Of a DNA stretch of 64,000 bases, positions 6,489 through 58,196 are shown piece after piece (positions within the stretch are counted from its first letter, which is position 1; the number at the start of each line of letters is the position of its first letter). The notes beneath the pieces are model-generated. The model was not told where the DNA came from and made no database searches. It saw only the letters and a program-made list of their open reading frames with translations. The position numbers and the translations under genes are program-made. The stretch lies in assembly GCF_018399035.1 (NCBI RefSeq), contig NZ_CP073760.1, forward strand, positions 4,960,501 through 5,024,500, written 5' to 3'. Origin of the DNA: Thiocapsa sp. (GTDB lineage Bacteria > Pseudomonadota > Gammaproteobacteria > Chromatiales > Chromatiaceae).

Positions 6489-6614
6489 TAAACCGCGCCC
6501 GGTGCGATGTGCGTAGTGTGTTGGATTGGCTTGGCCGCGTCGGCTCCAGCGGTCGTCAAGTCTGCCGAGGCCGATCCCATCCAAAACATCGCATACCGTG
6601 CCGGGCGCGGTTTA
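6489..6614 (-). repeat. Dispersed TAAACCGCG element, copy 1 (palindromic module-A derivative)
   Basis: 126 bp bounded by TAAACCGCG and CGCGGTTTA. The right-hand ~75 bp matches module A of the other copies in reverse orientation (GGCCGATCCCATCCAAAA, CATCGCATACCG). The left ~48 bp looks like a degenerate forward start of the same module, so this copy is a head-to-head palindrome. Module B and the AT-rich linker are absent. Confidence 0.8.
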
Positions 6615-27196: not shown

Positions 27197-27388
27197 TAAA
27201 CCGCGCCCGGCGCGGTATGCGATGTTTTTGGATGGGATCGGCCCCGGCAGACTTGACGACCGCCGGAGCTGGCGCGGTTTAAGGTATTAAAAAATATATC
27301 ATTTTAAGCCGCGCCCCCGCTAAGGGCCGTGGATGCACCAAACGTCGAACTTACTCGAAAGTTAGCATTTCGCTCTGGACGCGGTTTA
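27197..27388 (+). repeat. Dispersed TAAACCGCG element, copy 2 (modules A + B)
   Basis: Module A 27197-27281 (85 bp), AT-rich linker 27282-27304 (23 bp), module B 27305-27388 (84 bp). The right terminus CGCGGTTTA supplies the TAA stop of the phosphoketolase gene on the other strand (27386-27388). Confidence 0.92.
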
Positions 27389-32822: not shown

Positions 32823-32938
32823 TAAACCGCGCCCAGTGCGGTATGCGATGTTTTTGGATGGGATCGGCCCCGGCGGATTTCAGAACCGCTGGAGCCCGCG
32901 CGGTTTAAAGTATTAAAAAATATAAAATTTTAAACCGC
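32823..32938 (+). repeat. Dispersed TAAACCGCG element, copy 3 (module A, linker, start of B)
   Basis: Module A 32823-32907 (85 bp) and linker 32908-32930 (23 bp) are complete. Only TAAACCGC of module B remains, running straight into the C-terminal codons of the hsdM remnant. The TAA of that remnant comes from this end (32930-32932). Confidence 0.88.
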
Positions 32939-33160
32939 TTCGACCGCCTCGGCACCGACGTAACGGCCGGGGGTGAGCACAAAGCCGTGGGCGGCGATCT
33001 CGGCGGTGGTGGCGGATGTGCAGAAGCCGAGGACGACGTGCTTGTATTCCGCCGCGTCCATGTTGTTGCGGAGCTTGTCCGCCGCGAGCCAGAGCTTGGC
33101 CTCGAAGCCGAGGTTGGCGGACGAGTCGGACTTGCTTCCGTTCGATTTGCGGCGGGCCAT
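32930..33160 (-). pseudogene. Type I DNA methyltransferase (hsdM) remnant, internally deleted
   Basis: 76 residues. The start [20 protein letters not shown], then [20 protein letters not shown], is the typical HsdM N-terminus. After HVVLGF it jumps to [17 protein letters not shown], the typical HsdM C-terminus. More than 400 residues, including the SAM-binding and NPPF motifs, are gone. The stop codon is provided by a dispersed repeat. With the HEPN, MNT and hsdR remnants it marks a lost type I restriction-modification locus. Confidence 0.8.
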
Positions 33161-39438: not shown

Positions 39439-39645
39439 ACGACACACCTCAACTTATCCGCCTGGAATTCTAGGCGCTTTGCCGCCGCCCTGATTTGATG
39501 CAGCGCAGCTAATTAGAAATTTAGCAAACTCGAATGATCCGAGCTGCGTTCCCGGGAGAATCCGGGCCCTGGCGGGTGTTCGAACGCTAGCGGATTCCAA
39601 GACCCTCTGCTGTGACGCGGTTCGGATGAGCAAGACGAATCGTTT
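39439..39645 (-). promoter_or_regulatory. Probable promoter region of the hydrogenase operon
   Basis: About 200 bp before the HupH-like gene. It contains an AT-rich block near 39508-39530 (CTAATTAGAAATTTAGCAAA), unlike the GC-rich surroundings. Hydrogenase hyn expression in Thiocapsa is FNR-controlled, but I see no full TTGAT-N4-ATCAA site, so the regulator is not assignable by eye. Confidence 0.4.
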
Positions 39646-40691: not shown

Positions 40692-40884
40692 TAAACCGCG
40701 CCCGGCGCGGTATGCGATGTTGTTGGATGGGATCGGCCCCGGCAGACTTGACGACCGCTGGAGTCGGCGCGGTTTAAGATATTAAAAAATATATTATTTT
40801 AAACCGCGTCCCCGCTAAGATCCGGGGATGCACCAAACGTCGAGCTCACTCGAAAATTTAGCATCTCGCTCTGGACGCGGTTTA
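40692..40884 (+). repeat. Dispersed TAAACCGCG element, copy 4 (modules A + B)
   Basis: Module A 40692-40776 (85 bp), linker 40777-40799 (23 bp), module B 40800-40884 (85 bp). It fills nearly the whole gap between the PilZ and agmatine deiminase genes. Confidence 0.93.
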
Positions 40885-44300: not shown

Positions 44301-44453
44301 TGGACCAGCACCTCCGTTGTGCGGCCGGCGGTTTGGGTTCCGATGCCGGCATTTGCGAATGCTGTGCTCGACACCCGTCTCGGGCGTCGCCGGTTCGGTG
44401 TGTATCGATGCGTGTCGGCCCATCCTACGTGTTTCGCTTCGCTCTACCCACTC

Positions 44454-44646
44454 TAAACCGCGTCCAGAGCGAGATGCTCACTTTCGAGTGAGCTCGAAGT
44501 TTGGTGAATCCACGACCCTTAGCGGGGAGCGCGGTTTAAAATTTTATATTTTTTAATACTTTAAACCGCGCCGGCTCCAGCGGTTCTGAAATCCTCCGGG
44601 GCCGATCCCATCCAAAAACATCGCATACCGCACTGGGCGCGGTTTA
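44454..44646 (-). repeat. Dispersed TAAACCGCG element, copy 5 (reverse orientation)
   Basis: Module B 44454-44538 (85 bp), linker 44539-44561 (23 bp), module A 44562-44646 (85 bp), the mirror of copies 2, 4, 6 and 7. Confidence 0.93.
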
Positions 44647-47273: not shown

Positions 47274-47466
47274 TAAACCGCGCCCAGTGCGGTATGCGAT
47301 GTTTTTGGATGGGATCGGCCCCGGCGGATTTCAGAACCGCTGGAGCCGGCGCGGTTTAAAGTATTAAAAAATATAAAATTTTAAACCGCGTCCCCCGCTA
47401 ATGGTCGTGGATTCACCAAACTTCGAGCTCACTCGAAAGTGAGCATCTCGCTCTGGACGCGGTTTA
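47274..47466 (+). repeat. Dispersed TAAACCGCG element, copy 6 (modules A + B)
   Basis: Reference-quality copy: module A 47274-47358 (85 bp), linker 47359-47381 (23 bp, AGTATTAAAAAATATAAAAT), module B 47382-47466 (85 bp). Both modules begin TAAACCGCG and end CGCGGTTTA. Confidence 0.95.
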
Positions 47467-57050: not shown

Positions 57051-58007
57051 ATGATGACCCTGCAGACTGTTGCTCGACCCACCCCCGGCTTGCCGACGGG
57101 TCTGGACTTGACCATCGCGATCGGAGAGTCCGTGTCGTCCGGTCAGCTCGGGTCTGCGAGCAGCCTCCTCGCGGCCCTCCCGTCGGTCGGGGCTCGGATC
57201 TCGCCCGCCAAGCTGATCGAAATGCTGGAGGCATTGCTGGCGAGCGACGTGGACGCCGCCGCACGATTGGGACTCCTCCACGCCTGGACGGCTCCCGTGT
57301 TGGCGGTCGGTGAGCACCTCGGTGATCACGCGGGTCGGCACGCCGGCGAAGAGTCGGGCGCGCGCACCGGCGGATCCGGATCGATTTTCGAGGGGCGTCT
57401 CTATCGCCTGATGTTCCGTAACCTCGCGGCGGCGATCGAGTGGGCCGCGGACCGCCAACGTGCTCCCGATGGCGATCTAAACGCGTGGGCGATCCGTAAC
57501 CTGTTCTATTTCTTTCAGCATCAGATCCGACATGCCGCGCGCCTGCAGATCCCGCTCCCCGCCGGATCTTGGCGTGATCTTCATGCCCTGTCGGTGCGCC
57601 TCGTCGTGAGCGCCAGGTATCCGCGAGCGGCCAAGCGTTTGCGGGAGGCCGGTTCCGAGGTCGGGCATCAGGGTGTGAAGGCGATCGAGCTGAGATACAA
57701 AGAGGTCCTTTTGCTCGGACTGATCGCGCAAGTCTTTGCGACCGCGATCCAGGATCACCTGAAGGGGTTGCGCACCTGGGCGGTCGAAACCCGCTTGGAA
57801 AATCCATTCGGTCTGACCGGTCAGCGCGGATTATGGCTGGTGGATCTCGCCGACGATGCCCCGCCGTGCGAGTGCACCGGGCCCTTGAGCCCGGATTTTC
57901 GCGGTTGGGTCTTGTTCCCGCCCGAGGATTTCGTCCGCATGCTCGATTCGGCGCGCCTGTCGGAGACCTTCGCTCCCGACCGGGGTGTTCGCCCGTCTCC
58001 CTTTTAA
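57051..58007 (+). CDS. Uncharacterised helical protein whose stop lies in a dispersed repeat
   Basis: 318 residues if started at ATG 57051 (MMTLQTVARP); an upstream ATG at 56973 is possible but codes for unlikely sequence. No family is securely recognised. The N-terminal half is helical (LLAALPSVGARISPAKLIEM). The middle contains IELRYKEVLLLGLIAQVFAT and ENPFGLTGQRGLWLVDLADD, reminiscent in layout of proteobacterial proteins with a helical domain ahead of a PilZ-like part; that link is weak. The TAA at 58005-58007 is the first codon of a dispersed repeat, so the protein may be a truncated form of a longer ancestor. Confidence 0.65.
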   Translation: MMTLQTVARPTPGLPTGLDLTIAIGESVSSGQLGSASSLLAALPSVGARISPAKLIEMLEALLASDVDAAARLGLLHAWTAPVLAVGEHLGDHAGRHAGEESGARTGGSGSIFEGRLYRLMFRNLAAAIEWAADRQRAPDGDLNAWAIRNLFYFFQHQIRHAARLQIPLPAGSWRDLHALSVRLVVSARYPRAAKRLREAGSEVGHQGVKAIELRYKEVLLLGLIAQVFATAIQDHLKGLRTWAVETRLENPFGLTGQRGLWLVDLADDAPPCECTGPLSPDFRGWVLFPPEDFVRMLDSARLSETFAPDRGVRPSPF

Positions 58008-58196
58008 ACCGCGCCCTCTGCGGTATGCGATGTTTTTGGATGGGATCGGCCCCGGCGGTTTTGACAAACGCTGGAGTCGGCGCGGTTTAAAGTATTAAAA
58101 AACATTACATTTTAAACCGCGTCTCACCGAGACCGAGGACATCTCCGAAGCGAAACGCAACATGAAAATGACGCATGTCGCTCTGGACGCGGTTTA
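58005..58196 (+). repeat. Dispersed TAAACCGCG element, copy 7 (modules A + B)
   Basis: Module A 58005-58089 (85 bp), linker 58090-58112 (23 bp), module B 58113-58196 (84 bp). Module B is the most diverged copy. The left-end TAA ends the preceding reading frame. Confidence 0.92.

Follow-up and report, generated by a model that had tools for sequence, protein, structure and literature searches.

A TA-inserting, MITE-like family of hairpins in Thiocapsa whose old copies may be kept as transcript-end signals

A family of hairpins, apparently MITE-like and inserting at TA, is dispersed through the genome of Thiocapsa sp., and its old copies are, on a reading of the sequences that we moderately favour, kept as signals at the ends of transcripts, probably as terminators. 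Confidence is tempered because the tail of modules with decayed arms exceeds its control, because changes in one arm outnumber paired changes, and because the definition of an old copy is looser outside the source genome. In the proposed scheme, the family would be made up of mobile, non-coding, MITE-type hairpins in high copy number. A unit is either one module of about 85 bp with 11-bp terminal arms or an inverted pair of modules joined by an AT-rich linker, usually of 23 nt. Insertion at the TA within YTAR would be carried out by a transposase supplied in trans, presumably one of the IS630/Tc1-mariner or a similar TA-duplicating type; that the TA is duplicated is shown by the comparison of filled with empty sites. 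As the unit itself begins with TAA, a stop would be restored whenever it lands in a stop codon reading TAA or TAG, which may be the reason why gene ends are tolerated and over-occupied as targets. The 3' end of the transcript would thereby receive a strong hairpin from the inserted unit, and in doubles the AT-rich linker comes next, its T-rich side being presented in one direction. Copies with a downstream T-run predominate among the old ones, presumably since these are kept as intrinsic terminators or as mRNA 3'-end hairpins. Mobile elements donate promoters; to our knowledge, the genome-wide donation of a stop codon together with a 3'-end hairpin is much less documented. Hundreds of young and old copies coexist, and empty alleles are found in sister species; the step from a parasite to a part of the host is therefore testable by direct comparison.

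The window, which is the whole stretch of 64,000 nucleotides that was analysed, belongs to a genome present as a single contig of 5,726,338 bases (the source genome, G000; other G numbers denote comparison genomes). The seven copies of a two-module element which an earlier note had described in it are all present (Table 1), the copy at 44454 being reversed and that at 32823 consisting of module A and the linker. The common plan ascribed to the five complete copies stands as regards lengths (A of 85 bp, linker of 23 nt and B of 84-85 bp), but the B modules are not uniform: B of the 27197 copy begins with TAAGCCGCG, and B of the 58005 copy is a second B type, named B2. An eighth, decayed copy at about 39539-39625 (site P) had been overlooked. 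None of 4227 Rfam families matches the window on either strand at the gathering score. Several other repeats were seen. A second dispersed repeat, with CCCATCCTACGTGTTTCG and its reverse, adjoins modules (L320:11930-12116 and window 44393-44453), and a repeat with GGACAAGCGCAGCGC...CACCA lies within or close to module sites in G004, G008 and G010 (L344 at site s4, described below; L210 at site P; L201 at the 44454 site). Another short palindromic repeat has arms like CGACTTCAGTC / GACTGAAGTCG (L277:11037, 13076 and 17045; L283:2117 and 12311).

Table 1. Copies of the element in the window
Position	Strand	Structure	Remarks
6489..6614	+	palindromic A derivative, 126 bp	
27197..27388	+	A + 23 nt + B (84 bp, left arm TAAGCCGCG)	a minus-strand ORF takes its TAA stop from the right end
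32823..32940	+	A + linker + first bases of left arm	remainder of B missing
39539..39625	+	old decayed module, site P	orthologous in G010, G003, G001, G008
40692..40884	+	A + 23 nt + B1	orthologous in G010, G001, G004
44454..44646	-	A + 23 nt + B1, reversed	
47274..47358	+	module A, 85 bp, arms TAAACCGCGCC/GGCGCGGTTTA	
47359..47381	+	AT-rich linker, 23 nt	on the minus strand, T-rich tract after module B
47382..47466	+	module B1, 85 bp, arms TAAACCGCGTC/GACGCGGTTTA	
58005..58196	+	A + 23 nt + B2 (84 bp)	a plus-strand ORF takes its TAA stop from the left end

The modules occur far beyond the window: the exact pattern TAAACCGCG-N60-90-CGCGGTTTA has 475 matches in the source genome, and the reversed-pattern control has 0. 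With the 193-bp copy as the query, at least 40 near-full-length copies with 97-99% identity were obtained, the query included (40 of 416 candidates were scored). Among 56 genomes, the exact pattern is present in 10, the source genome included. Eight of the 11 genomes of the genus contain it in 121 to 591 copies, and outside the genus it is found in G028 (81 copies) and G031 (1 copy). The congeners without exact copies, G005, G006 and G009, are the most distant ones, their best match to the window region having 76-79% identity. A wider pattern matches in 19 of 146 genomes of the family, with a control of 0; six genomes of the genus were included in this draw, among them G005 with one copy. More than 40 copies of the wider pattern were counted in nine genomes of five genera (G000, G001, G003, G004, G008; G028; G063; G159; G168). 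The stretches with modules among the matches listed (80 of at least 120) all belong to Chromatiaceae, and they come from Thiocapsa, Thiobaca trueperi, Lamprocystis, Thiocystis and Chromatiaceae MAGs. The genome of the cultivated T. roseopersicina DSM 217 has modules.

The anatomy of the modules was examined in a 1.2-Mb sample made up of 60 blocks of 20 kb, out of 80 evenly spaced over the source genome; the other 20 fall mostly near stretches covered separately or within the final fifth of the genome. The choice of loci L001-L020 was based on the matches they contain. The sample holds 154 modules of 80-90 bp with no more than two arm mismatches (0, 1 and 2 mismatches in 102, 28 and 24 modules), one of them, with two left arms, being counted twice (L296:2699/2707), and the control is 0 at these levels. 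Three mismatches are found in 9 pairs versus 2 in the control and four mismatches in 32 versus 17 (reversed control), with no peak at 84-86 bp. The length of the modules is mostly 84-86 bp, and their interiors range from near-identical to unrecognisable. The arms, TRAACCGCGYC, pair over 11 bp around an interior of about 63 nt. One linked cluster comprises 120 of the 154 modules; the 34 outside it (30 alone and two pairs, one of which is the double count) are also 80-90 bp long, 22 of them 84-86 bp. The minus strand of the 193-nt copy at 47274, when folded, gives -86 kcal/mol with a z-score of -7.9. For eight modules the z-scores lie between -2.4 and -5.1, and each of the eight has its arms paired in the best fold; the arms also pair in 20 of 21 representative modules, L004:3708 being the exception.

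The modules group into 107 units, of which 63 are single, 41 double and 3 triple. Counted by composition, there are 26 units with A only, 11 with B only and 36 with A and B, in addition to 26 other single modules and 8 other combinations. The length of the linker, which the earlier note took to be the same in every complete copy, is indeed 23 nt in all five complete copies of the window; it is 23 nt in 33 of the 41 doubles of the sample and is thus not invariable. A 23-nt linker is present also in G159, a member of another genus. The recurrence of this linker in most doubles and in a second genus marks the double as an old unit, although single modules are mobile as well. The outer ends of the two modules are the same (GCATnnCGCnCTGG) in 36 of the 37 family doubles, which holds for 1 of the 4 other doubles as well, and the double is therefore an inverted pair.

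Evidence for mobility comes from the flanks of 42 units, in the window and in syntenic loci of congeners. Five insertion sites have empty alleles, and at four of them TA is found in at least one empty allele. At the site shared by G003 (L226:2441) and G004 (L229:593), TA is present in all four empty genomes; at L229:2609 of G004, one of two empty genomes has TA and the other TG; at the single modules L207:18077 of G004 and L209:6698 of G007, the sole empty genome has TA at each, as read by eye. At window position 40692, all three empty genomes (G008, G002 and G003) have TC. The gap determined automatically is 2 bp at three sites and 1 and 3 bp at the two single modules, where TA was read by eye. 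The base preceding a family unit is C in 0.45, T in 0.54, G in 0.01 and A in 0.00 of 156 flanks, C and T together making up 99%. Since TA is duplicated and C or T stands before it, the target is YTAR. The resemblance to MITEs seen by the earlier note is borne out by the terminal inverted repeats, by a length below about 200 bp and by the TA duplication in filled versus empty alleles. The mobilisation mechanism requiring both modules, which it had considered, finds no support, single units being in the majority (63 of 107) and two single modules having empty alleles that read TA by eye. The arms seem to recombine, because A alone, without linker or B, occupies the 40692 site in G007, and because site s2 (L019:9470) has a double in some species and one fused module in others.

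No transposase gene with the ends of the family was found in the places read. No inverted arm pair encloses an IS630 gene (PF13358) in 30 of 48 places read in 11 genomes; at one of the PF13358 places, L249, two left arms lie on one side. In all 14 places of the source genome with IS4/IS5 (PF01609), no arm pair encloses the gene, and arms or modules are near three of them. The source genome has several copies of IS630-type elements that are about 1.17 kb long and whose ends, TACCTCATATAGGCACAA, are flanked by TA (L254, L261, L263 and L269). In about 1.66 Mb of the source genome there are 18 long end pairs, three among them of 4.5-5.0 kb. The 2395-bp end pair was rejected as an autonomous element, for by eye we take its ORFs to be lpxK and kdsB and not a transposase. 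The ends of five more long end pairs were inspected, the ORFs being read in the 2395-bp pair only.

That the family is a REPIN/RAYT system with unusual repeats is very improbable. The two share an architecture of two conserved ends, a variable spacer, a hairpin and compensatory changes, according to the available part of the REPIN source (PMC3116915), and lone arms lie 0.4-0.5 kb from a Y1 match in L044 and L045. However, the family duplicates TA and lacks an unpaired GTAG tag, and no module pair encloses a Y1 gene at the 30 loci read of 100 Y1 matches (11 genomes, flanks of up to 1.5 kb), which also tells against the REP/BIME membership entertained in the earlier note. Modules are found 1.0-1.3 kb from a Y1 match in 7 of the 30 loci, and six of these are the prfB site; RAYT/Y1 was rejected as the mobiliser, as the consistent neighbour of the modules is prfB and not the Y1 gene. 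By anatomy and duplication the family is MITE-like; by its tag it is not REP/REPIN, though similarly built.

The units are located between genes, and often exactly at their ends. With codon-based gene calls (828 genes, 69% coding, thus undercalled), not one of 140 modules has more than half of its length within a called gene, 14 edge cases being left out. Of 95 placed units, 60 are flanked by tandem, 27 by convergent and 8 by divergent genes, the intergenic length of the three classes being 212, 48 and 56 kb, respectively. The module contributes the stop codon with its first three bases in 22 of the 60 tandem units, and in all loci together the module supplies the stop in 132 of 343 module-strand cases (TAA in 113 and TGA in 19), convergent units entering twice. 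Stops of the YTAR form are over-occupied, 38 having a unit and 104 being vacant, compared to 40 occupied and 333 vacant YTAR elsewhere in intergenic DNA (Fisher p 1.5e-5, with crude gene calls). Insertion at an in-frame TA inside the end of a gene would mimic a stop supplied by the module; this is probably not the rule, because the outgroups G005, G006 and G009 have a plain stop (TAG or TGA) without a unit at s1 and s2, as read by eye. On the 3' side of prfB, an old module is present in 7 of 7 congener genomes looked at (L052, L035, L037, L041, L047, L049 and L031). A second module begins after the first in six congeners, both of its arms having been read in G000 and G003, and no module was seen by eye in the stretch after prfB at 23 loci of other genera.

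Old orthologous copies were compared at prfB, which was encountered by accident, and at sites s1-s4, which were picked for near-consensus arms in the copy of the source genome. The identity of arms and interiors, respectively, is 0.948 and 0.731 for the prfB module (n=7 genomes), 0.985 and 0.692 for s3 (n=6), 1.000 and 0.830 for s4b (n=5), and 0.955 and 0.755 for s1 (n=6), and in the younger modules at 40692 it is 0.932 and 0.884 for one and 0.932 and 0.926 for the other (n=4), values obtained with extraction patterns which permitted few arm variants and so favoured intact arms. Outside this scoring are s1 of G003 (right arm changed), s1 of G008 (lost), s3 of G001 (interior deleted), genomes missing one flank and the first s4 module; the second prfB module (one sequence) and site P (mis-parsed in G000) are unscored and quoted from the sequence. 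At s3 in G001, the interior is gone and both arms are kept. Copies also decay: s1 is decayed or lost in G003, G004, G007 and G008, and so is the first s4 module in G000 and G002.

These data bear on the possibility that the family is a purely selfish MITE, with arms renewed by transposition and serving as search bait, and with old modules that are remnants of small subfamilies of no use to the host. Young families do dominate, as the single cluster of 120 of the 154 modules shows, some orthologous copies do decay, the extraction of orthologues itself demanded near-intact arms, and insertion into stop codons might simply be harmless. We nevertheless consider this explanation unlikely: transposition cannot renew orthologous copies, yet their arms are 95-100% identical while the interiors are 69-83% identical, and the T-run polarity described below is confined to old copies.

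Paired changes of the arms recur in modules with unlike interiors (AAAACC/GGTTTT, GAAACC/GGTTTC, AATCGCG/CGCGATT, AACTGCG/CGCAGTT and CGCTTC/GAAGCG). At site P, the arms differ between species as CCAAACC/GGTTTGG versus CCGAACC/GGTTCGG, the pair being A-T in G001 and G003, G-C in G010 and G000, and G-T in G008. The second position of the duplicated TA is A/A in 320, G/G in 36 and mixed A-G in 15 of 380 distinct modules, counts which are inflated by relatedness. In the 1.2 Mb, 36 modules have changes in one arm only, versus 16 with one change in each arm. Palindromes of 84-86 bp with drifted or other arms are not in excess. Read in the sense of the gene, the arm mismatches show no RNA-strand bias, with G.U in 47 and A.C in 46; the corresponding numbers are 17 and 23 where the module is the stop, and 10 and 6 in old units alone. 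The absence of a G.U excess speaks against a purely RNA-level constraint.

The lack of strand bias and the symmetric TG..CA changes of the duplicated TA would fit a cause at the level of DNA, either a protein-binding or cruciform site, or arms which correct each other by template switching in replication. This cause appears quite unlikely. Under mutual correction alone both arms would drift together, but no excess of palindromes with drifted arms is seen at 84-86 bp; furthermore, a DNA-level cause does not predict the T-run polarity.

The polarity was scored in tandem units no more than 30 nt from a stop, after the removal of orthologous duplicates, as the longest run of T or A (at least 5) within 22 nt after the first module. 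With 'old' defined as less than 70% identity to A, B1 and B2 of the window, a class which in other species may include their own young families, the ratio of T-runs to A-runs downstream is 17:3 in old units (45 units, 25 of them with neither run) and 23:27 in young units (91 units; Fisher p 0.0033). In the source genome alone, the ratios are 9:1 (27 old units) and 8:12 (35 young units; p 0.017). Runs of at least 4 give 20:6 for old and 25:32 for young units (p 0.008), and before the removal of duplicates the ratios were 22:5 and 25:29. The test was devised after T-tracts had been seen at s3 and s4. Young doubles have no preferred direction relative to genes, A being first in 27 and B in 23. 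Insertion thus looks indifferent to direction, and retention does not. This difference is the main support for a role in termination.

A hairpin kept for the protection or processing of the 3' end of mRNA, as proposed for REP and NEMIS, and not for termination, seems rather unlikely. It would agree with the position of a strong hairpin right at the stop and would need no T-run of 5, which is absent from 28 of the 45 old units. Alone, however, protection does not account for the T-run polarity of the old units. Retention as transcript-end signals, probably terminators, stays the preferred reading. A more far-reaching proposal, which we put forward tentatively and hold to be somewhat doubtful, is that the family is a portable, self-spreading gene end: a transposable hairpin for which stop codons would be a favoured landing place through its target, YTAR, and which would replace the stop with its own TAA and bring a terminator, may have rebuilt the 3' ends of about one quarter of YTAR-ending genes in the sampled part of the genome, and would be retained by selection across the genus.

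Among the literature matches listed, no title or abstract start describes the present family, and no match combines Thiocapsa with miniature inverted-repeat. A 2024 review, in the part available, regards terminator roles of prokaryotic MITEs as conceivable (PMC10969869). The comparisons with known systems that follow draw on the available parts of the sources cited. REPINs and REPs (PMC3116915, PMC3733652) have in common with the Thiocapsa family conserved ends, a variable spacer, a hairpin, compensatory changes, hundreds of intergenic copies and inverted doublets; the Thiocapsa family differs by its TA duplication in YTAR, its arms TRAACCGCGYC, and the absence of GTAG and of an enclosed Y1 gene in the loci read. 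IS630/Tc1-mariner elements share the TA duplication and a CTAG-like target, insertion of IS630 at TA in CTAG being named by title in the reference list of PMC2170065, but the IS630-type copies in these genomes end otherwise, for example with TACCTCATATAGGCACAA. SPRITE, compared by description only, is a dispersed repeat resembling a terminator in a different organism, whereas the present family inserts into stop codons, is retained from one species to another and has been put to a polarity test. Correia/NEMIS, ERIC and RUP (PMC2229807) are likewise small, non-coding and mostly intergenic elements with terminal inverted repeats, TA ends, a target duplication and a long RNA stem-loop. In contrast to these, the interiors of the Thiocapsa modules diverge beyond recognition at near-constant length, the modules pair up in inverted orientation around a linker that mostly measures 23 nt, and they supply stop codons.
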